Assembly (NCBI RefSeq): GCF_001570525.1
Contig: NZ_BBXC01000018.1
Location: forward strand, 1 to 41,000
Reading direction: 5' to 3'
Length of the DNA stretch: 41,000 nucleotides
From: Herbidospora sakaeratensis
GTDB lineage: Bacteria > Actinomycetota > Actinomycetes > Streptosporangiales > Streptosporangiaceae
The position numbers and the translations under genes were made by a program. Of this stretch, positions 15,337 through 31,664 are shown one piece after another; position 1 is the first letter of the stretch, and each line of letters opens with the position of its first letter. Below the pieces are notes generated by a model. The model saw only the letters and a program-made list of their open reading frames with translations, made no database searches and was not told where the DNA came from.

Positions 15337-17238
15337 ATGACAGTGAGGTGGGCGGTCGGCGTGGGCGGGCTCGCGGCGGCGGCCGCGGCGCTCGTCCTCG
15401 GGCTGGTCAACGGGCTCGGGGCGGTGGCGCTCAGTCACCTGGTCTACGCGGCGGCGTGCGTGCTGATCGGCACGATCATCGCGGTGCACCGGCCCCGCAA
15501 CGCCGTGGGCGGGCTGCTGCTGACCGCCGGGCTCTCGTTCACGGCCCTGGACTTCTTCGGGCTGCTGGCGCTCTGGCGGCCGGAGTTGTCCCTGCTGGCC
15601 TGGCCGCAGAACTTCCTCTGGGTGCCGGCCAACCTGGCCATGGCCGCGATCCCCTACTGCTTCCCCGACCGCCCGCTCCCCGCGCCGAAGCTGGTCGTGC
15701 CCGCCGTGGTGCTGGCCGCGCTGCCCTGCGCGTTCGCGCCGGGGGCCAACCAGCAGCTCGGATACGGCCTCGCGCTGCCCAACCCCCTGGGGATCGAGGC
15801 CCTGGCCGGCGTCGCGGCGTTCATGGAGCCGGCGATCACCGTGGTGGCGGCCCTGCTGTTCCTGGTCGGCTCCGCCGACCTCGCCCGCCGGGCCCGGCGC
15901 ATCGAGCGGGCCCAGGTCCAGTGGCTCGTCTACGCCGTCTCGGTCGCCGGCGTGGTCGTCGTGCTCCGGCTGGCGGCCGGGCTGACCGACGACCTGCCGG
16001 ACACGATCTGGCCCCTCGACAGCGGCCTCTGGGAGCTCGCCGGGACCGCCGCGATCACCCTCGTGCTGGCCGCCATCGGCATCGCGATCGTGCGGCACGG
16101 CCTGTTCGACGTCGAGCTCGTCATCAACCGCACGCTGGTCTACGCCGTGCTGACCGCGTTCGTGACCGGCGGCTACGTCGGGGTCGTCGGCTACCTCGGC
16201 GCGGTCTTCGAGAGCAGCGGCCTGCCGCTCTCGGTGGCCGCCGCCGCCGTCGTCGCCCTCGTCTTCGCCCCGCTGCGGGCCCGCGTGCAGCGCGCCGTCA
16301 ACGTGCTCATGTACGGCCGCCGCGACGACCCCTACGCCGCCCTCGCCCACCTGGGGCGCAGCCTGGAGGCCCGGCCGGACGCCCAGGCGGCGGCCGCGTC
16401 GGTGGCCGAGGCGCTGAAGCTGCCCCACGCCGCCGTGGAACCGCCCGGCCACGCCGGCGATCCGGGGCTGGTGCGGTTGCCGCTGACGTACAAGAACGAG
16501 CTCGTCGGGCACCTGGCCCTCGCGCCGCGCCCGGGGCAGCGCGAGTTCGGCGCCCGCGACCTGCGGCTGCTGCGCGACCTGGCCCGCCAGATGGGCTCGG
16601 TCGTGCACGCCGAACGGCTGGCCGCCGACCTGCGGGCCTCGCGCGAGCGCCTGGTGGTGGCCCGGGAGGAGGAGCGGCGGCGGCTCCGGAGGGATCTGCA
16701 CGACGGGCTCGGGCCGACGCTGGCCGCGCTGACCATGCGGGCCGAGGCGGTCCAGGACCTGGTCGACGACCCGAGGGCGCAGGACCTGCTGGAGGAGATG
16801 ATCGGCGCGGCCCAGGCGGCCACGGCCGACGTGCGGGCCGTCATCGAGGGGCTGCGCCCGCCCGCGCTCGACACCCTCGGCCTGCTCGGGGCGCTGCGGG
16901 CCCACGTGGCGGGGCTGCCCGGGGAGCCGCGGGTCGGTCTCGATCTGCCTGCCGAGCTGCCCGAACTGTCGGCGGCCACCGAGGTGGCGGCATACCATAT
17001 CGCTGTCGAGGCGATCAACAACGCCCGCCGCCACTCCGGCGCCGGCACCGTCACGCTCCGGCTCGTGCCCTGGAAGAACCTGCTGGTCGAAGTCGTCGAC
17101 GACGGCCGCGGGGCCGGGGGGCCACCGGGCATCGGCCTTACCTCCCTGCGCGAAAGGGCCGTCGAACTGGGCGGCTCCTTCGCGGTCATCACTGCGCGCG
17201 GCACCACCGTCCGCGCGCAGTTGCCGATCGGAGCCTGA
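15337..17238 (+). CDS. Membrane sensor histidine kinase, NarL/DesK type
   Basis: A 633-residue kinase. About the first 320 residues hold a series of hydrophobic membrane segments (at least eight), such as [20 protein letters not shown] and [14 protein letters not shown] cytoplasmic GAF-like region follows at about 340-430. The dimerisation domain is HisKA_3 type, [19 protein letters not shown], with phospho-acceptor His455; the HATPase has [18 protein letters not shown] (N box), [10 protein letters not shown] and [11 protein letters not shown] (G boxes). The response regulator starts at the base after its stop. Signal unknown. From memory, S. coelicolor has a kinase/regulator pair in the same place between miaB and the glutamate transporter. 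Confidence 0.93.
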
Positions 17239-17874
17239 ATGAACCAGATCCGCGTCCTGCTCGTCGACGACCACCCCGCGTTCCGGGCGGGCCTGTCGGC
17301 CCTGCTCAAGCCGGTCCGCGAGATCGTGATCGCCGACGAGGCGTCCACCGGCGAGCAGGCCCTGGCGCTCGTCGGCGGGGTGCAGCCCGATGTGGTGCTG
17401 ATGGACCTGGCCATGCCCGGCATGGGCGGGGTGGCCGCGACCGAGCGGCTGGTGCGCGACCACCCGCACATCAGGGTGCTGGTGCTGAGCATGGCCGACG
17501 ACGACGACTCGGTGTTCGCCGCGCTGCGGGCGGGGGCCAGGGGGTACGTGCTGAAGGGGGCCAGGAAGGCCGAGCTGGTGCGGTCGATCGTGGCGGTGCA
17601 CGGCGGCGAGGCGATCTTCGGGCCGGCCATCGCGTCCCGGCTGACCGGCTACTTCACCGGCCTGGCCAGGCGCGAGCGGGGCTTCCCCGAGCTGACCGCC
17701 CGGGAGCGGGAGATCCTGATCCTGATGTCCAGCCATCTGACCAATCCGGTGATCGCCGAGCGGCTCGGGCTGAGCGGCAAGACGGTCCGCAACCACGTGT
17801 CGAGCATCTTCGCCAAACTGCACGTCGCCGACCGCGCCGAGGCGATCACGCGGGCGCGCGAGTCGGGGTTCTGA
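17239..17874 (+). CDS. LuxR/NarL-family response regulator
   Basis: A 211-residue regulator paired with the kinase directly upstream (no gap between the genes). The receiver domain has the acidic pair in [10 protein letters not shown], the phospho-acceptor Asp56 in [12 protein letters not shown], the Ser/Thr switch in [10 protein letters not shown] and Lys in [12 protein letters not shown]. The C-terminal LuxR helix-turn-helix is [36 protein letters not shown]; the usual Gly-x-Ser/Ala turn reads SHL-TN, a small departure. The 3' end overlaps the convergent membrane-protein gene by 29 bases. It is the natural candidate to bind the palindromes at 15284 and 18521. Confidence 0.95.
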
Positions 17875-19381: not shown

Positions 19382-19392
19382 AGGTGGCTGTC

Positions 19393-20199
19393 ATGCGTGT
19401 CCGTCGAATTGGTGCCCTCCTGATGACCGCCGCCGCGCTGGCGGCGACCTTGACCGCGTGCAGCGGCGGCGACAAGTTCGTCATCGGCGTGAAGTTCGAC
19501 CAGCCCGGCCTGGGCCTGAAGCAGACCGACGGTTCGGTGAAGGGTTTCGACGTCGACGTCGCCTCCTACATCGCCAAGGAGCTCGGCTACACCCCCGAGC
19601 AGATCGAGTGGAAGGAGACCGTGTCGGCCAACCGCGAGCCCTTCATCCAGCAGGGCCAGGTCGACATGGTGGTGGCGACCTACTCGATCACCGACAAGCG
19701 CAAGGAGGTCATCTCCTTCGCCGGTCCCTACCTGGTCACCGGTCAGGACATCCTGACCCGCGCCGACGACACCTCGATCACCGGCCAGGACAGCCTGCAG
19801 ACCAAGAAGGTCTGCGGCGCCCAGGGCTCGACCTCTCCCGCCCGCCTGGTCGAGAAGTTCGGCGAGGCGTGGAAGGGCCAGTACCTGACCGAGCAGCAGG
19901 GCTACGGCAACTGCCTGCCGCTGCTCGACCAGAAGCAGGTCGACGCGATCTCCACCGACGCCACCATCCTCGCGGGCTTCGCCGCCCAGAGCCCCGGCAA
20001 GTTCCGCCTCGTCGGGCAGGTCTTCTCCGAGGAGAAGTACGGCGTCGGCCTCAAGAAGGACGACAAGGAGACCCGCGACAAGGTCAACGCGGCGATCGAG
20101 AAGATGTTCGCCGACGGCTCGTGGAAGAAGGCCGTCGAGGCGAACTTCGGCGAGTTCGCGCCCAACTTCGCCACCCCGCCCGCGCTGGAGAAGTACTGA
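19393..20199 (+). CDS. gluB: Glutamate-type ABC transporter substrate-binding lipoprotein
   Basis: A 268-residue family-3 solute-binding protein. Signal RRIGALLMTAAALAATLTAC places the lipid on Cys23. The mature protein has GFDVDVASYIAKELGY, then the ligand-contact block REPFIQQGQVDMVVATYSIT with DKR immediately after and SFAGPYLVTGQD, as expected for a glutamate/glutamine binder. GGTGG before the ATG at 19393 decides the start over the GTG at 19384. A strong hairpin follows the gene. A shortened paralogue of this protein lies at the end of the operon (21787-22566). Confidence 0.93.
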   Translation: MRVRRIGALLMTAAALAATLTACSGGDKFVIGVKFDQPGLGLKQTDGSVKGFDVDVASYIAKELGYTPEQIEWKETVSANREPFIQQGQVDMVVATYSITDKRKEVISFAGPYLVTGQDILTRADDTSITGQDSLQTKKVCGAQGSTSPARLVEKFGEAWKGQYLTEQQGYGNCLPLLDQKQVDAISTDATILAGFAAQSPGKFRLVGQVFSEEKYGVGLKKDDKETRDKVNAAIEKMFADGSWKKAVEANFGEFAPNFATPPALEKY

Positions 20200-21786: not shown

Positions 21787-22566
21787 GTGTCGGTTCGCCG
21801 CGATCGGCGATCAAGATCTGATCCTGATCGGGTGTGGCGTGTCGTCTCCGCGGGTATCGCGGCCCTCTCGATCGCGGCCGGGCTCACGGGTTGTTCGGGC
21901 ACCGGCCTCCTGATCGGCGTCCGGGCGGGCCAGCCCGGCCTGGCCGAGATGCTGCCCGGCGGCGGCTGGTCCGGGTTCGACATCGCCGTGGCCCACTACG
22001 TGGCCCGGCAGCTCGGCTACCGGAAAGACCAGATCCGGTACACCACCGACCTCGATTCGGCCGACCTGGTGATGGGGCCCGCGCGGGAGCCGTACGTCGG
22101 CCCCTACCTGGTCGCGGCCAAGGACATCCTGGTCAGGGCCCGTGACCGCGACCGGACCCTGAAGGATCTGGCCGGCGGGCTCGTCTGCGGCACCCGGGCC
22201 GACACCCTCGGCCTGAGCGGCCGGTTCGGCCCCGCGTGGCGGGCCGCCCACCTGGCCGAGGCCAACGTGCCGGCGGCCTGCGGGCCGCTGCTGGCCGACC
22301 GGCGCACCGACGCGATCATCGCCGACGCGCCCGTGCTGGCCGGGTTGTCGGCCCAGTATCCCGGCCGGTTCCGGCTGGTCGGACGCCCCCTCGCGCAGGA
22401 ACGTTACGGGATCGGCCTGTCGGAGCGCACCGAGTCGTGGCGCGACGACATCGAGGACGCGCTGCGCCAGATGTACGACGACGGTTCGTGGCACCGGGCC
22501 GTCATCGACTACCTGGGCGAGCTCGCCACCCAGTACGAGATGCCGCCGGCCCTGGAAAAGCGCTAA
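21787..22566 (+). CDS. Second, shortened family-3 solute-binding protein (gluB paralogue)
   Basis: A 259-residue lipoprotein with a signal VVSAGIAALSIAAGLTGC (lipobox Cys36 if the GTG at 21787 is used; the GTG at 21832 gives Cys21 and is also possible, with short inverted repeats between the two). It aligns end to end with GluB: SGFDIAVAHYVARQLGY, GPYLVAAKDILVRA, LVCGTRADT, LLADRRTDAIIADAPVLAG, RFRLVGRPLAQERYGIGL, DDGSWH, MPPALEKR. Between residues about 80 and 105, however, some 18 residues are gone, removing the REPF...VDMVVATYSIT..R block that contacts ligand in GluB. It directly follows gluD (8 bases). It may bind something else or not bind amino acids at all. Confidence 0.85.
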   Translation: MSVRRDRRSRSDPDRVWRVVSAGIAALSIAAGLTGCSGTGLLIGVRAGQPGLAEMLPGGGWSGFDIAVAHYVARQLGYRKDQIRYTTDLDSADLVMGPAREPYVGPYLVAAKDILVRARDRDRTLKDLAGGLVCGTRADTLGLSGRFGPAWRAAHLAEANVPAACGPLLADRRTDAIIADAPVLAGLSAQYPGRFRLVGRPLAQERYGIGLSERTESWRDDIEDALRQMYDDGSWHRAVIDYLGELATQYEMPPALEKR

Positions 22567-22607: not shown

Positions 22608-24419
22608 ATGCTCCCCGAGCGCACGCCGTTGCCGTACGCCGCCCGCATATCCACCGCCGACGTGGCCCGGTCGGGCCTCAACCTCGGCTTCCCGACCGTG
22701 ATCGGCGACGAGGTGTGGTGGGAGGAGGACCGGCCCGCCCAGAACGGCCGCCGGACCCTCGTCCACCGCGCCGCCGACGGGCGGCGGCGCGAGATCCTGC
22801 CCGCCCCCTGGGACGCCCGCACGCGGGTGCACGAATACGGCGGACGGTCCCACCTCGTCGTGCCGGAACTCGGCGTCGTCTTCGCCGAACACTCCGACCA
22901 GCGGCTCTACCTGCTCTCCGACGGCACGCCCCGGGCGATCACCGAGGAGGGCGACTGCCGCTACGCCGACCTGTCGTGGGCGGGCGGGCGCATCTTCGGC
23001 GTCCAGGAACGCCACCACGACGACGGGAAGGTGGAACGCGCCGTCGTGGCCGTCTCGCTCGACGGCTCGGTCTCGGTGATCGCGTCGGGTTCCGACTTCT
23101 ACGCCTACCCCACGGTCTCGCCCGACGGGGAGCACGTGGCGTACGTCTGCTGGAACCACCCCCGCATGCCGTGGGCGGGCACCGAGTTGCGCGTCACCCG
23201 GATCGACGACGGCTCGTCGTGGACGGTCAAGGGCGGCCAGGCCGAGTCGGTGCTCGCGCCGGCCTGGAAGGACGACCGCACCCTCTACCTGGTGTCCGAC
23301 TGGTCGGGCTGGTGGAACATCTACCAGATCGGCCTGTTCGGCACCTCGCCCCGCGCGCTCTACCCGGCCGAGGAGGAGTTCGCCGGCCCGCTGTGGCAAC
23401 TCGGCGGCCGCCCCTTCGTGGTGCTCGGCGCCGACCGGCTCGGCGTGCTGCACGGGCAGGGCAACCTGCGGCTGGGCGTGCTCGACGTCGAGTCGGGCGT
23501 GCTGACCGACCTCGACGTGCCCTACGACGGCTTCTACCCGGAACTGTCGGCCGACGGCCGCATGCTGGTCGGCCTCGGCTACGGCTGGGACGTGCCCCGC
23601 TCGGTCGTCCGCGTCGACACCGTGACCGGCCGGGTCGAGGGCCTGCGCCGCGACATCGCCGAACTCCCCGACGTCGCCTGCCTGCCCCGGCCGTCGGAGG
23701 TGATGATCGACCACCGGGTGCCCGCCTACCTCTACGCGCCCATCGACGCGACCGGCCCCTCGCCGTTCGTGGTGTTCGCCCACGGCGGCCCGACCGGCCA
23801 CGTGACGACCGAGCTCAGCCTGGCGCGGGCCTTCTTCACCACCCGCGGCATCGGCGTGCTCGACGTGAACTACGGCGGCTCGACCGGCTACGGGCGCGCC
23901 TACCGCGAGAAGCTGCGCGGCCAGTGGGGCGTGGTCGACGTCGACGACGTGATCGCCGCCGCCGAGTGGCTCGCCTTCTCCGGCCACGCCGACCCGGCCC
24001 GGATCGCGATCCGCGGCGGCAGCGCCGGCGGCTGGACCGTGCTCGCCGCCTGCGCGGCCTCCGACGTGTTCGCCGGTGGCGTCTCGATCGCCGGGGTCAC
24101 CTCGCTCGGCCCGCTCCTGGAGGCGACCCACGACTTCGAGTCGCGGTACGCCGACTGGCTGGCCGGTCCCGACGGTCAGCGCCGCGAACCCCTGGCCCGG
24201 GTCGGCGAGATCGACTGCCCGGTCCTGCTGCTGCAGGGCCAGAACGACCCGGTCGTGCCGCCGTCCCAGGCCGAGACCTTCGTCGCGGCGCTCACCGCCC
24301 GGGGTGTTCCGTGCACCTACCTGGCGTTCGAGAGCGAGGGGCACGGGTTCCGCCGGCTGGAGACCAAGACCGCCGCCCTCGCCGCCGAGCTCTCGTTCTA
24401 CCTGCAGATATTCGGATAG
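22608..24419 (+). CDS. S9-family (prolyl oligopeptidase-like) serine peptidase
   Basis: A 603-residue protein with no signal peptide. The N-terminal beta-propeller (about 20-350) has WD/DPP-like blades such as YAYPTVSPDGEHVAYVCW and LVSDWSGWWNIYQI. The C-terminal alpha/beta hydrolase has the nucleophile Ser472 in RGGSAGGWTVLAA, Asp547 in QGQNDPVVPP and His579 in EGHGF; VFAHGGPTGH is the oxyanion region and NYGGSTGYGRAYRE is typical of acylaminoacyl-peptidase/DPP relatives. The ATG at 22608 has AGGA eight bases upstream and is preferred to the ATG at 22599. Its end overlaps the convergent synthase gene by 22 bases. Confidence 0.9.
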   Translation: MLPERTPLPYAARISTADVARSGLNLGFPTVIGDEVWWEEDRPAQNGRRTLVHRAADGRRREILPAPWDARTRVHEYGGRSHLVVPELGVVFAEHSDQRLYLLSDGTPRAITEEGDCRYADLSWAGGRIFGVQERHHDDGKVERAVVAVSLDGSVSVIASGSDFYAYPTVSPDGEHVAYVCWNHPRMPWAGTELRVTRIDDGSSWTVKGGQAESVLAPAWKDDRTLYLVSDWSGWWNIYQIGLFGTSPRALYPAEEEFAGPLWQLGGRPFVVLGADRLGVLHGQGNLRLGVLDVESGVLTDLDVPYDGFYPELSADGRMLVGLGYGWDVPRSVVRVDTVTGRVEGLRRDIAELPDVACLPRPSEVMIDHRVPAYLYAPIDATGPSPFVVFAHGGPTGHVTTELSLARAFFTTRGIGVLDVNYGGSTGYGRAYREKLRGQWGVVDVDDVIAAAEWLAFSGHADPARIAIRGGSAGGWTVLAACAASDVFAGGVSIAGVTSLGPLLEATHDFESRYADWLAGPDGQRREPLARVGEIDCPVLLLQGQNDPVVPPSQAETFVAALTARGVPCTYLAFESEGHGFRRLETKTAALAAELSFYLQIFG

Positions 24420-25543
24420 CGGTCGCGCACGACCTCACACGCCGCCACGATCCGGTCGACGTCGTCGTCACCCAGCCCGGCGTGCAGCGAGAGCCTGATC
24501 AGCGCCCGGTTCCGGGCCGTCGCGGGCGGCGCGAACACCGAGCCGAACACGCCGTGCTCCTCCAGCAACTCGCGGACCTCGATGGTGGCCCACTCGGTGC
24601 CGGTCTGGAGCGCCACGATCTGGCTCACCGAACCCTCCAGGTCGAAGCCGAGCGCGGCGACCTCGTCGCGCACCCACTCCGACACCTGGTGGAGCCGGTC
24701 GCGCCGCCACTCGTCGGTGCGCACCACCTCCAGGGTCGCGGCCAGCCCGGCCAGCTCATGGGGCAGCAGCGCCGAGGAGAACACGGCCGGGAACGACTCC
24801 AGCCGGAAGTAGGGCACGAAGGCCGGGTCGGCGGCCGTGACGAACCCGGCCCGCCCGGCGAACGCCTTCGAGAGGCTGGCGATGCGGAAGTGCACGCGGT
24901 CGGTCAGGCCCAGCGCGACGACCAGGCCGGCGCCCAGCGGGCCGGTCGTACCGAGAGAGTGCGACTCGTCGACCACGAGCACGCACCCGCTCTGCTCGAC
25001 CAGGTCGCAGATCTCCTCCAGCGGGCTGGCGCTCCCGTTGGTGCTGTAGAGGGCGTCGACGGCGACCACGCCGGGGCCGTTGCGGACGATCCGCCGTTCG
25101 AGGTGCGCGAGGTCGTTGTGGCGGAACGCGTGGATCGGCGCGCCGGCCAGCCGCGCCCCGGCCGCGAGGGACATGTGGGCGAGCTGGTCGACGTACACGG
25201 GCGTGTGCACGTCGGAGATCGCCTGTAGCAGGCCCAGGTTGGCGTCCCAGCCCGACTGGCACAACACCCCGGCGGCGGCGTGCACGTAGTCGGCGAGATC
25301 CCGTTCGAGCACGTGCTGGGGGTGCCCGATCCCGTCGAGCAGGCAGTCGGCCATCTGCTTGGCGACCCGCTCGTCACCGGCCAGGGCCAGGTAGTCGTTG
25401 GAGTCGACCACGACGTCGCCCGGCCGGGGCGGCCGCCCGAACAGCAGGTCCCGGCCGCCCCACTCCCCCGCGACCCTGTCCTGGTGGAACCGCTCGACCC
25501 GGGCCCGGACACGAGCGGTGGCGGGCTGGGAGGACAAGGTCAT
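24398..25543 (-). CDS. Alpha-oxoamine synthase resembling CAI-1 autoinducer synthase CqsA
   Basis: A 381-residue PLP enzyme of the AONS/KBL fold. The PLP lysine is Lys226 in IASLSKAFAGRAG, with VVDESHSLGTTGP (Asp192) and STNGS nearby. Beyond the fold, many stretches match what I recall of Vibrio CqsA rather than BioF or HemA: VVDSNDYLALAGD, CQSGWDANLGLLQAI, VDQLAHMSLAAGAR, NGPGVVAVDALYST, ESFPAVFSSALLPHELAGL, and HGVFGSVFAPPATARNRALI. CqsA joins an acyl-CoA to S-adenosylmethionine or aminobutyrate to give an amino/hydroxyketone signal. The segment around residues 70-80 is about 11 residues shorter than in Vibrio CqsA. No cqsS-like receptor is next to it. No biotin or haem genes lie nearby. 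The ATG at 25543 is chosen. Confidence 0.82.
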   Translation of the reverse strand: MTLSSQPATARVRARVERFHQDRVAGEWGGRDLLFGRPPRPGDVVVDSNDYLALAGDERVAKQMADCLLDGIGHPQHVLERDLADYVHAAAGVLCQSGWDANLGLLQAISDVHTPVYVDQLAHMSLAAGARLAGAPIHAFRHNDLAHLERRIVRNGPGVVAVDALYSTNGSASPLEEICDLVEQSGCVLVVDESHSLGTTGPLGAGLVVALGLTDRVHFRIASLSKAFAGRAGFVTAADPAFVPYFRLESFPAVFSSALLPHELAGLAATLEVVRTDEWRRDRLHQVSEWVRDEVAALGFDLEGSVSQIVALQTGTEWATIEVRELLEEHGVFGSVFAPPATARNRALIRLSLHAGLGDDDVDRIVAACEVVRDRYPNICR

Positions 25544-25683: not shown

Positions 25684-26478
25684 TCAGCGCGAGGCGGCCT
25701 TCACGATCAGCGAGGTGACCGTGTCGGGGTGGCTCATCATCGGCACGTGCGAGCTGTTGATCTCGACGATGACGCCCTTGGCGCGCTTGGCCATCGCCCG
25801 CTCGGCCACGGTCGGGATGATGTTGTCCTGCTTGGCGACCACGAAGTAGCTCGGGATCGTCTTCCAGGCCGCCGGTCCCGACGCGGTCACCAGCGCGCCC
25901 AGCGCCCCCGGCCGCTGCGTCGCGGCCATCACGGCGGTGGTGGAGCGGGGCAGATCCTGGGCGAACAGGCGGTGGAAGTGCGCCGGGTCGATGTAGGCGT
26001 CCTGGTCGCCGCCCTGGGCGCCCGGGAACGGCTTGGTCTTCAGGTGGTTGGTGACCTCGGTCTCGCCCCCGGCCAGGTGGTTCGCGTCCGACACGCTCTC
26101 GCCCTCGTTGAGCGCGTAGGCGGCCACGAACACCAGCGACTTCACGTTCGGGTTGCCGGTGGCGCCGTTGGAGATGACAGCCCCGCCGTAGGAGTGCCCG
26201 ACGAGCACGACCGGCCCCTCGATCGTCGTCAGGAACTGGCGCAGGTACTCACCGTCGGGCACCGGGCCCCGCAGCGGGTTGGAGAACGCGATCACCGGAT
26301 AACCCTTGGCGAGCAGCCGCCCCGCCACGTCGTTCCAGCCGCTGGAGTCGGCGAAGGCCCCGTGGACCAGCACGACGGTGGGCTTGGGCCGGGGCGTGCC
26401 CACGGCCTGCGCGGGGGTGGCGAAGGTGAGGCCGGCCAGCAGGAAGGCGGCCATGAGGGATTTCAGTAAGCGGGACAT
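25684..26478 (-). CDS. Secreted alpha/beta-fold hydrolase
   Basis: A 264-residue protein with a signal peptide (RLLKSLMAAFLLAGLTFATPAQA, cut after Ala25) and an alpha/beta hydrolase domain: TVVLVHGAFADSSGWNDVA (oxyanion HG), nucleophile Ser96 in VLVGHSYGGAVI, Asp in VVAKQDNIIP and His in INSSHVPMMSHP. This arrangement is common in esterases annotated only as alpha/beta hydrolases. The second of two adjacent ATG codons is chosen because GAGGAG lies five bases before it. The 3' end is followed by a hairpin. Confidence 0.88.
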   Translation of the reverse strand: MSRLLKSLMAAFLLAGLTFATPAQAVGTPRPKPTVVLVHGAFADSSGWNDVAGRLLAKGYPVIAFSNPLRGPVPDGEYLRQFLTTIEGPVVLVGHSYGGAVISNGATGNPNVKSLVFVAAYALNEGESVSDANHLAGGETEVTNHLKTKPFPGAQGGDQDAYIDPAHFHRLFAQDLPRSTTAVMAATQRPGALGALVTASGPAAWKTIPSYFVVAKQDNIIPTVAERAMAKRAKGVIVEINSSHVPMMSHPDTVTSLIVKAASR

Positions 26479-26656
26479 CATGCTCCTCGGAGTCGTTGAC
26501 GACCCGCTCATCGTCGGCCGGGGCACGGGGGCGGCGAATCATGTGGTGTTCGTAGTCTTTGCCCGCGATCTCCGGAGACGGTCACGCGCTTTCCGTGCTC
26601 GGACCACGCCCACCTGGGGGGATGGGTGGGCGAAGCCGTAACGGGGGCACCGGCGA

Positions 26657-28784: not shown

Positions 28785-31664
28785 TCACGGAGACTCCAGG
28801 AAGCCCTCCTCCTCACCGGAATCCTCCTCCCCCTCGGCCTCCAGAGCCTCCCTGACGATCCGGAAGGCGAGCCCCGGCGGATAACCCTTACGAGCCAGCA
28901 TGCCGACCAGCTTGCGCGTCCGGGCGCGGGCGTCTCCCCTGGTCGAGCCCAGCTTGCGCGCCACCAGCCGCCGGGCCGTCTCGACCTCCTCATCAGGATC
29001 GAGCTGCTCGACGGCCTCCTTGACCATGTCCTCCTCGACGCCGCGATGCCGCAACTCCTGCGCCAGGGCCCGGCGGGCGAGCCCCCGGCCGTGGTGGCGC
29101 GAACTCACCCACATGGCGGCGAACGCCTGATCGTCGATCAGCCCTACCTCGGAGAACCGTTCGAGGACACGTTCGGCTACGTCTGGTGGGATTTCTCGTT
29201 TGAGCAGGGCTTCGGAGAGTTGGGCGCGGGTTCTTGGGGCGAGGGTCAGGAGGCGGAGACAGATGCCTCTGGCGCGGGCTTCGGGATCGGAGCTGTGCTC
29301 CTCGGAGAAGGGTGTGCGGCGCTTGGACCGACCGCCGGCGTTGTCGTCTTCGGAACCACCGCTCTTGGAGGCACGGTTGCCGGAAGCCCGATTGCTAGAG
29401 GCCCAGTCGCCGGAGGCGCGGTTGCCGGAGGCGCGGTTGCCGGAGGCGCGGTTGCCGGAGGCGCGGTTGCCAGAGGCCCGGTTGCGAGAGCCGCGGTTGC
29501 CAGAGGCGCGGTTACCTGATGCATCACCGAAGCCACCGCTCCGGTAGGCACCGTTGCCATAACCGCTGCCATAGTCATCGCTGCCGCTGCCGCTGCCGCT
29601 GCCGCTGCCGCTGCCGCTGCCGAAGAGCCCATCACCCTCGGCGGAATCGCCGTCAATGGGGTCGCTGTCAACGGGGTCGTCGCCGCGGGATGCACGCCGG
29701 CCCGCTCCGCCGGTCTTTGATCGACGCCCGTGGCGGCCACGACCGGAGGGCTCCTCATCGGGCAGGCCACCCCAATCAAGCGGATTCGGGCGCTCGTCGG
29801 CCGCTGTCCGGAGATCCGGAGACCCCGTTACATCGCCGCGCCCATCAGCACCGGTGAACCAATCCGCGTGACGCGGCCTATCGGAAGTCCGGCCTCCCCT
29901 TCCCCAACCATCAGCGCCGGAAGACCCCTCAGGCGTCCCTCCCCCTGGCTCCTCATCACCAGACGAGCCGCCAAGAGACTCCCGGCCATCCGGCGTCATA
30001 GGCAGATCAGAAGACCTCGCCTCATCACCGTCAGACGGTTGGCCAAGAGGCGCGAGCTGATCTTGTTCGCGATTCCAGGCCTCATGTCCTGACTCATCAC
30101 CATCCGAAGCCTCGGTAGGCCATCGCTCGTGGTTGCGCTCCTCGCCATGACCGGAAGACCGGGGGAAGTCCTCCACCCCGTCTTCATCGAGAACCGCGCC
30201 GCCGGCGTTCCCATCCTCACCATCAGACGGCTGGCCGAGACGCTCCCGCCGATCGTCTGGCGGAGACGGGACCACGTCTCCCTGCTCACCTCGACCATCT
30301 GACAATGCAGCCGGAACACCCTCCAGCACACCACCATCAGAGAAACGACCAGGAACGTCCGACGAGGACGAGATCAGGCCTTCGCGCTCACCACCATCGA
30401 CCGAACGGCCGAAGTGCCCCCTTTGACCATCCGGCGAATCCGATGAGACATCCTCCTGCTCACCGTCATGAGACGGACGATCGAGACGTCCCCACCGGTC
30501 ATCCGGCGAAGTCGAGGAGTCGCCCTCCCGCTCACCGCCGCCAGACCAACTGCCGAGACCATCTGGCCAAGTCGAGGAGAGGTCCTGCTGCTCACCACCA
30601 CCACGCCTACGGCCAAACCGCCCAACCCGATCATCCGACGAAGCCGAGGGGTCGCCCTCCGAGGCACCGCCGCCAGACTGACTACCGAGACGCCTCCCGC
30701 GACCATCCGGCGAATCCGAGGAAAGGTCCTGCTGCTCACCACCGCCAGACCTGCGGCCAAAACGCCCAACCCGATCATCCGACGCAGCCGAGGACTCGTC
30801 CTCCCGCTCACCACCGCCAGACCGACTGCCGAGACGCCTACCCCGACCATCCGGCGAATCCGATGACACGCCCTCCTGCTCACCGCCAACGAACCGATCG
30901 CTAAGACGCCCCCCTCGACCATCTGGCAGCAACCCCGCTGAGCCCTCATCGGACCTGCGACCAAGGCGGCTCCATCGACCATCCGACGAGGACGGGGGTG
31001 CGCTTTCAGGCTCATCGCTGTCAGGCGGCAATAGGGGTCGCCGACGCAGGCCGCTGCCTGAGGGCCTGCTCTCAAGATCCCAACCGTGCGGGCCCTCATC
31101 TGGCTGCTGATCGTCTTCGGGCAGCCGACTGAGCCGCCCCCGCCGATCACCCCAGGAAGACCGGCCTACGGCCTCCTGATCGTCCCCCTCCAAAGGCAGG
31201 CGGGATCGCCCCTGTTTGGAAGGCCGGCCCTTGCGCTGCCGACCGCGGCCGGGACTCTCAGCCGTCTTCTCCGCCTCGTCGTCGCCAAAGGACAACCCGG
31301 AAGCCGACCCGGCATCCTCCTGGGCATCACGCTGAGGCCACCGGAATCGTCCATGCTCCCCGTCATCCGACGGCTCACGCCGGCGGCCGAAGATCGAGTC
31401 GTCCGGTCCGGCTCCGATCAAGCCGCCCGGGTCGTCGTCGAACGCGGCGGCGCCGGGCCAGGGCCCGCCGCCGTCTCGGACCGTTTCCGGGTCGATCTCC
31501 GACCAGGTCGAGCCGCCGGTGGTCCATTCCGAGCGCGAATCCGGGAAGCCCCATCCCGGGGGGTCGGACTCGCGCTCGTCGGACCATCGGTCGTCGTCAT
31601 ACGGCCACCCGGGGCGGCCCCGGGCGCTCCGGTCGTCGTCGTTCCAGGGGTCGGAAGGTCGCAC
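28785..31664 (-). CDS. recX: RecX with a giant low-complexity N-terminal extension
   Basis: A 959-residue frame beginning at a GTG eight bases after the recA stop. Only the last 169 residues are RecX: ARARGICLRLLTLAPRTRAQL, VLERFSEVGLIDDQAFAAMWV, GRGLARRALAQELRHRGV and ARKGYPPGLAFRIVREAL give the three-helix repeats that bind RecA filaments and restrain them. Residues 1-790 are predicted disordered, rich in Gly, Asp, Arg, Ser and Glu: eight copies of a 24-residue repeat (about 260-452), a (GS)n run (about 681-695) and SGNRA pentapeptides (about 716-764). Typical RecX has 150-270 residues. No stop or better start separates the extension from the RecX domain. Codon third positions there are less GC-rich than in neighbouring genes. 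Confidence 0.8.
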   Translation of the reverse strand: MRPSDPWNDDDRSARGRPGWPYDDDRWSDERESDPPGWGFPDSRSEWTTGGSTWSEIDPETVRDGGGPWPGAAAFDDDPGGLIGAGPDDSIFGRRREPSDDGEHGRFRWPQRDAQEDAGSASGLSFGDDEAEKTAESPGRGRQRKGRPSKQGRSRLPLEGDDQEAVGRSSWGDRRGRLSRLPEDDQQPDEGPHGWDLESRPSGSGLRRRPLLPPDSDEPESAPPSSSDGRWSRLGRRSDEGSAGLLPDGRGGRLSDRFVGGEQEGVSSDSPDGRGRRLGSRSGGGEREDESSAASDDRVGRFGRRSGGGEQQDLSSDSPDGRGRRLGSQSGGGASEGDPSASSDDRVGRFGRRRGGGEQQDLSSTWPDGLGSWSGGGEREGDSSTSPDDRWGRLDRPSHDGEQEDVSSDSPDGQRGHFGRSVDGGEREGLISSSSDVPGRFSDGGVLEGVPAALSDGRGEQGDVVPSPPDDRRERLGQPSDGEDGNAGGAVLDEDGVEDFPRSSGHGEERNHERWPTEASDGDESGHEAWNREQDQLAPLGQPSDGDEARSSDLPMTPDGRESLGGSSGDEEPGGGTPEGSSGADGWGRGGRTSDRPRHADWFTGADGRGDVTGSPDLRTAADERPNPLDWGGLPDEEPSGRGRHGRRSKTGGAGRRASRGDDPVDSDPIDGDSAEGDGLFGSGSGSGSGSGSGSDDYGSGYGNGAYRSGGFGDASGNRASGNRGSRNRASGNRASGNRASGNRASGNRASGDWASSNRASGNRASKSGGSEDDNAGGRSKRRTPFSEEHSSDPEARARGICLRLLTLAPRTRAQLSEALLKREIPPDVAERVLERFSEVGLIDDQAFAAMWVSSRHHGRGLARRALAQELRHRGVEEDMVKEAVEQLDPDEEVETARRLVARKLGSTRGDARARTRKLVGMLARKGYPPGLAFRIVREALEAEGEEDSGEEEGFLESP
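29371..29517 (-). repeat. 15-bp tandem repeat coding for SGNRA pentapeptides in recX
   Basis: About ten copies of GCGGTTGCCGGAGGC (plus strand) run head to tail. Four central copies are identical and the outer ones have substitutions. The period keeps the reading frame. Confidence 0.85.
29581..29622 (-). repeat. Hexamer microsatellite (CTGCCG)7 in recX
   Basis: Seven perfect CTGCCG units code for a Gly-Ser run on the minus strand. A change in copy number would keep the frame. Confidence 0.95.
30309..30887 (-). repeat. 72-bp (24-codon) repeat array in recX
   Basis: About eight units of 24 codons. The first four alternate between two subtypes (SSDSPDGRGRRLGS and ASDDRVGRFGRR), which shows that a two-unit, 144-bp block was duplicated. 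Later units are more diverged and one is shortened. Confidence 0.8.

Follow-up and report, generated by a model that had tools for sequence, protein, structure and literature searches.

Work on alpha-hydroxyketone signalling has centred on Vibrio, Legionella and Janthinobacterium. In Vibrio the signal CAI-1 is produced by the synthase CqsA, and the accessible text of two papers describes LqsA of Legionella and JqsA of Janthinobacterium as related synthases (PMC3376566, PMC3566124); for these two we rely on the published relationship, as their sequences are absent from both of our trees. According to the available part of PMC3566124, the jqsA gene adjoins jqsS and jqsR, and a violacein response is reported there for Janthinobacterium with jqsA deleted. 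The route of CqsA, in the available part of PMC10491745, runs through an adduct of S-adenosylmethionine (SAM) and pyridoxal 5'-phosphate (PLP), from which methylthioadenosine is lost before acylation. CqsA homologues have been described from CPR and DPANN (PMC7567580, accessible text). Here we report on a gene for a CqsA-type alpha-oxoamine synthase in the actinomycete Herbidospora sakaeratensis, located in a stretch of 41,000 nucleotides (contig NZ_BBXC01000018.1, positions 1 to 41,000), which is referred to as a whole as the window.

Like CqsA of Vibrio cholerae and V. harveyi/campbellii, with which it shares about 40-42% identity, the window protein falls into the CqsA clade and has the catalytic lysine, aspartate and histidine. 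It differs from Vibrio CqsA in that the loop 70-81 with F79 is missing, that H30, V32, F257, I263 and C346 are replaced, and that a cqsS-type sensor was found neither beside the gene nor in the genome. A relative from Cupriavidus, 47% identical to the window protein, has a gene for a six-helix-type sensor next door; no such sensor was found beside the window gene. The window protein's own branch comprises Nocardia and Herbidospora proteins, and within it both the loop state and the catalytic lysine vary.

A literature search combining CqsA or alpha-hydroxyketone with actinobacteria, Nocardia, Streptomyces and Actinomadura found, judging by titles, openings of abstracts and selected passages, no description of an actinomycete CqsA, with most subscription papers outside its coverage. 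A review of actinobacterial quorum sensing (PMC4748050) uses none of the words CqsA, hydroxyketone and CAI-1 in its main text, and in the available part of PMC12838073 the letters of the name are used in an unrelated sense. The curated NCBI model NF005526, which names RefSeq proteins, already covers the window protein. The novelty lies in an entire branch from actinomycetes whose acyl pocket is eroding, which has lysine-less members under selection and for which the known type of sensor was not found.

Identity and phylogeny of the synthase

24398..25543, reverse strand: CqsA-type alpha-oxoamine synthase P0001, 381 amino acids (from profile score, PDB match, trees and the ratio of nonsynonymous to synonymous substitution rates, dN/dS)

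In an NCBIfam scan, P0001 scored 455.2 bits with NF005526 (alpha-hydroxyketone-type quorum-sensing autoinducer synthase), above the curated cut-off of 428. The second-ranked model was bioF (TIGR00858), with 206.8 bits against a cut-off of 426.45, and the matches to the HemA, Kbl and serine palmitoyltransferase models were weaker still, all far below their curated cut-offs. The top PDB sequence was V. cholerae CqsA, aligned along the length of the protein (E 2.3e-86) and followed by serine palmitoyltransferase (5e-34), while tblastn gave identities of 41.4% to Vibrio campbellii CqsA and 47.0% to the Cupriavidus relative. A structure model (mean pLDDT 72.6, pTM 0.59) had CqsA as its top Foldseek match (E 4e-34, TM 0.42, root-mean-square deviation 17); its arrangement is unreliable and no inference on the pocket was drawn from it. 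Biotin synthesis need not use the window gene, because a separate BioF-like protein (L019) is encoded elsewhere in the genome, with bioF as its best family (376.8 bits, below the 426.45 cut-off).

Passing the NF005526 cut-off is in itself no proof of synthase activity, because among nine CqsA-type relatives scanned, of which seven scored above it, two lack the PLP lysine (L006 with 471.3 and L103 with 442.4 bits). The two that failed, L058 (381.3) and L118 (363.1), keep this lysine.

In a tree of 73 rows computed by a quick method, P0001 and 64 other CqsA-type rows were split from eight outgroup rows with SH-aLRT support of 100. The outgroup consisted of E. coli BioF and Kbl, Azospirillum BioF, Sinorhizobium HemA, one serine palmitoyltransferase, and L017, L019 and L064. 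A more careful tree, for which 53 of the 73 rows were used and the loop columns excluded, separated 46 CqsA-type from seven outgroup rows at 100/100 and recovered, adjacent to the Vibrio rows, a branch of 37 actinomycete rows (support 98/94); in this tree the order of the proteobacterial rows is unresolved and several outgroup rows are long branches. When the window protein was held with the seven outgroup rows, the approximately unbiased (AU) test rejected the arrangement (p-AU 0.0009). The partial rows L015, L075 and L124 had been excluded, and seven of the remaining 80 were then dropped to reach 73: L101, L102, L113 and L114 duplicated other rows, L104 and L106 were almost copies of L105, and L009 was a short contig of a metagenome-assembled genome. 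Nocardia is thus represented by 25 rows in the 73-row tree and not by all 32 genomes with a match. For two rows, L110 (genome G1355) and L061 (G283), the source matches carry one in-frame stop, the called open reading frames (ORFs) being open and perhaps shortened.

Membership of the window gene in the CqsA/LqsA clade is therefore supported by profile, phylogeny and catalytic residues. The initial annotation had called the protein CqsA-like rather than BioF, HemA or KBL, and this is borne out by NF005526, the trees, the AU test and the catalytic residues. The tree that it had proposed as a check places the protein with CqsA and outside BioF, HemA, KBL and serine palmitoyltransferase, LqsA not being among the rows. 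Its description of a synthase in one actinomycete holds for the clade and has to be widened for the host, since the branch is common in Nocardia.

Active site and the missing loop

24866..24868, reverse strand: codon of K226, the counterpart of the PLP-binding K236 of CqsA (alignment)
24959..24970, reverse strand: D192-E-S-H195, the counterparts of D202 and H205 at the cofactor ring (alignment)
25328..25333, reverse strand: junction of residues 71/72, where the CqsA loop 70-81 including F79 is missing (alignments)

The alignment pairs K236, D202, H205 and H133 of CqsA with K226, D192, H195 and H123 of the window protein, so that all four are kept. Among the 25 Nocardia rows, the H133 equivalent is replaced in three. 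From our knowledge of the fold we take the equivalents of D202 and H205 to act at the cofactor ring. For K236 of CqsA, a role in PLP binding is described in the available part of PMC3376566.

The acyl pocket is altered. Nine residues line this pocket in V. cholerae CqsA according to the accessible part of Ng et al. 2011 (PMC3285556), namely H30, V32, F79, F257, I263, F264, C346, P348 and A349, a list that defines the Vibrio CAI-1 pocket and not membership in the clade. Three of the nine (F264, P348, A349) are identical in the window protein, whereas H30, V32, F257, I263 and C346 are replaced by D, L, L, V and A, respectively, and F79 is deleted. A deletion of about 11 residues at 70-80, perhaps bearing on the choice of acyl chain, had been pointed out from the sequence at the outset, aptly in its aim, as a residue of the published pocket is removed with it.

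Scoring a loop as short when fewer than 10 of the 13 loop columns are filled, we find short loops in five of the six Herbidospora copy-1 proteins (the copy found in the window), in 14 of the 25 Nocardia rows and in the single row of genome group g4. None was seen among the 20 rows of group g37, four Streptomyces-like rows, three Herbidospora copy-2 proteins and six proteobacterial rows. In g37 the pocket varies by substitution, as an F or Y at position 79 is kept in only one of the 20 rows. The tree requires at least five changes of loop state, which we read as repeated losses because the regain of a matching loop is unlikely. Within Herbidospora, the looped protein L003 of H. yilanensis and the loop-less window orthologue offer a natural comparison for the function of the loop.

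Selection on the gene

Compared with the loop-less orthologues L001 and L002, the window gene has a dN/dS (NG86 method) of 0.21 to both, which indicates that the loop-less form is maintained. Further CqsA-type pairs in the same comparison set gave 0.08-0.29, and in all 17 pairs of the set the YN00 values were below those of NG86. The gene is kept under a constraint that is looser than that of core genes and near that of GluB (0.16-0.27) and of the neighbouring hydrolase (0.14-0.36).

Distribution and genomic position

All counts of distribution are lower bounds, because in any one genome a search scores just a part of the first-look candidates (four in most phylum and class rows, five in the family sample, six in group g70 and up to 16 in Nocardia). 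Matches over the cut-off were counted in at least 17 of the 297 genomes that made up the family sample. A strong match is present in six of the seven Herbidospora genomes examined, the window's own included, and three of the six carry two copies. At E 1e-60, at least 32 of 118 Nocardia genomes (group g72), about a quarter, have a match, which in two of the 32 (G1340, G1332) covers only the second half of the protein; over the matched part, the Nocardia sequences share 49-61% identity with the window protein. Elsewhere matches are sparse, with at least three of 295 genomes in group g70 (probably Streptomyces), at least six of 394 in the class sample (E 1e-60), and the own genome as the sole match among the 396 of the phylum sample at the same threshold. 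The two Herbidospora copies are distinct, because copy 1 groups with Nocardia and the second copies of three genomes group with most of the g37 rows. In G1246, one of the three g70 genomes, an 11.5-Mb contig (C1) bears equal-scoring CqsA-type copies (L074, L076) about 4 kb from each end, as in the terminal inverted repeats of a linear chromosome.

In Herbidospora the synthase is found at one site, between two genes which in the window are the following:

25684..26526, reverse strand: alpha/beta hydrolase, probably with a signal peptide (judged by eye), Pfam Abhydrolase_6, about 140 bp upstream of the synthase on the same strand
22608..24419, forward strand: S9-type peptidase (named by eye; tblastn, ORF), convergent, overlapping the end of the synthase gene by 22 bp

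The Herbidospora genome G109 has both flanks with 891 bp between the matched stretches, and no synthase match by tblastn better than E 0.49 was obtained there. Because G109 keeps both flanks without the synthase, we regard the window gene as an accessory element at a fixed place. The hydrolase is still at the site in G109, and the 891-bp insert holds an open frame that looks by eye like a membrane protein. This insert shares 117 bp with the stretch following the synthase in L005 (73.5% identity, E 5e-15), so part of the G109 neighbour also lies beside the gene in H. cretacea.

The hydrolase is a possible operon partner of the synthase. It adjoins the synthase in five of the six Herbidospora loci; the L003 locus is without a match, and the corresponding genome (G130) retains short hydrolase matches there and carries an 83% copy in a different place. 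We do not think that the S9-type peptidase is part of the system, and consider it a neighbour.

Proposed function and points against it

We lean, with some reserve, towards an accessory and active PLP-dependent alpha-oxoamine synthase of the CqsA/LqsA clade that would form an acyl-aminoketone, its product not being sensed by a receptor of the CqsS/LqsS type. Activity, substrates, product, release and role of the window protein are what we infer here. By analogy with CqsA, K226 would hold PLP, an amino acid or SAM would displace the lysine to form an external aldimine, and the resulting carbanion would attack an acyl thioester, loss of CO2 leading to an alpha-aminoketone or an enaminone. For Vibrio and Legionella, C8-C12 acyl-CoAs are reported; the acyl donor here would very likely be a different one, because the loop is missing and acyl-pocket residues are altered. 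A small, lipophilic aminoketone would be the probable product, serving as a non-essential signal or metabolite.

Several results weigh against this proposal. The CqsA loop, which we take to be a substrate loop of the fold, is filled in all eight outgroup rows, and its loss might abolish acyl transfer. The dN/dS of the window gene against L003-L005 is 0.33-0.40, and constraint is looser than for RecA and RNase Y (0.00-0.08, NG86). The PLP lysine is gone in five of the 25 Nocardia rows of the branch, being replaced by T in L006, L007 and L016 and by G in L103 and L107, where H205 is also changed to R; on the tree these amount to two changes in two lineages. No neighbouring gene was found in the locus comparison as a partner common to all lineages examined. 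Finally, a profile search for six-helix sensors of the CqsS/LqsS type found one in none of 11 actinomycete genomes, including the window's own, with a profile of three rows that could miss a very distant sensor. That profile was built from three sensor domains, two of the Vibrio CqsS type and one from the Cupriavidus neighbour of a CqsA-type gene, and it found four of four control records, three of which had supplied it; the fourth, from Tistrella, lies outside the profile, its sensor being located about 34 kb from the CqsA-type gene. The initial annotation had noted that there was no receptor next door, and the search of the genome for a CqsS/LqsS-like kinase likewise found none.

Other candidate receptors were considered and rejected. 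A pair of histidine kinase and response regulator genes at 15337-17874 of the window, shared by the five other Herbidospora species that have the synthase gene, encodes a kinase of the ordinary HisKA_3 type with weak GAF matches and is 7 kb away. OmpR-type kinase/regulator pairs flank the gene in the Nocardia loci L006 and L007; there the pairs lie on the opposite strand and the adjacent copies lack the lysine, and we take the pairs as neighbours. In the Nocardia locus L016 there is a kinase on each side and a single regulator.

Alternative explanations

Of the alternatives, we would give some weight, well short of that given to an active synthase, to a PLP enzyme without acyl transfer whose chemistry on the amino-acid side is a different one; SAM or a related amino acid might, for instance, undergo decarboxylation or beta,gamma-elimination. 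Loop and pocket are lost while the lysine, aspartate and histidine are kept, and an enzyme restricted to elimination would be chemically near, given the SAM-PLP adduct in the CqsA route (PMC10491745, available part). This explanation has to accommodate the three pocket residues that are identical and the alignment of the rest of the chain, along its length, with CqsA. It is quite improbable that the protein is an ordinary metabolic synthase, and we consider this largely refuted: the PLP core is common to BioF, HemA, Kbl and serine palmitoyltransferase, and weaker matches to all four are seen, but every score is far below its cut-off and the trees and the AU test are contrary.

A protein making a building block for a natural product instead of a signal appears unlikely for the window gene, although relatives point in this direction. 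In all three loci of a separate deep branch (L043, L053, L099), an acyl carrier protein gene adjoins the CqsA-type gene, joined by ketosynthase-type genes at L053 and L099 and by a ketoreductase-type gene at L099, so that these loci look like a type II polyketide-like cluster with a putative aminoketone-forming step. The three proteins resemble the window protein in belonging to the clade, and L043 and L099 exceed the NF005526 cut-off, but they differ in their full-length loop and their neighbours, their branch is far from the window protein in the trees, and neither a carrier protein nor a ketosynthase was seen among the genes adjoining the window gene. It is more doubtful still that the protein is non-catalytic or regulatory, heading toward the state of the lysine-less Nocardia relatives. 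There the lysine has been lost in two lineages and pairs of such genes have a dN/dS (NG86) of 0.10-0.12, indicating purifying selection, whereas the window protein retains K226, D192, H195 and H123.

For the branch as a whole, a far-reaching scenario may be drawn, to which we assign a low probability. A large, undescribed actinomycete branch of CAI-1 synthases, with the loop cut back several times, the lysine lost at least twice, the genes under selection and the known receptor type absent, would represent a signal synthase in the course of conversion, one lineage after another, to enzymes that use new acyl donors and to ligand-binding receptors or regulators without catalytic activity. Either the branch extends alpha-hydroxyketone chemistry to a phylum famous for its signals and antibiotics, or some of its members carry the automatic name "autoinducer synthase" wrongly.

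Partners of relatives and other genes in the window

L043, 9142-10620; L053, 6693-10420; L099, 5716-10764: CqsA-type gene with acyl carrier protein gene (neighbours identified by a Pfam run for L053 and by blast clustering for L099)
L101, 10458-11756; L103, 10951-12144; also L107 and L110: CqsA-type gene and SBP_bac_3 gene on the same strand (Pfam on L103)

In the latter four Nocardia loci (L101 being identical with L008), a gene of the glutamate-binding type (SBP_bac_3) is directly downstream of the CqsA-type gene. An amino-acid-binding protein was rejected as receptor, as the related genes of the window are 1.8 and 4.2 kb off, on the other strand and not adjacent. The second Herbidospora copies L040 (8510-10259), L041 and L042 are directly downstream of an EF-hand gene in all three loci, and an EF-hand gene is divergent next door in two of four Streptomyces-like loci (L097, L098). 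We do not rely on the EF-hand protein as a partner: the window gene has no gene of this kind next to it, and one of the L097/L098 genomes has 12 EF-hand matches, the other one.

At 21856-22566 of the window, after ABC permease genes, there is a divergent stretch resembling a glutamate-binding protein, which also occurs in the other Herbidospora loci; it is 39% identical to the protein at 19384-20199, and its Pfam SBP_bac_3 match is below the cut-off. On the reverse strand at 28785-31664, an ORF of 959 amino acids adjoins recA, its C-terminal part appearing RecX-like by eye and its N-terminal part being very long and repetitive.

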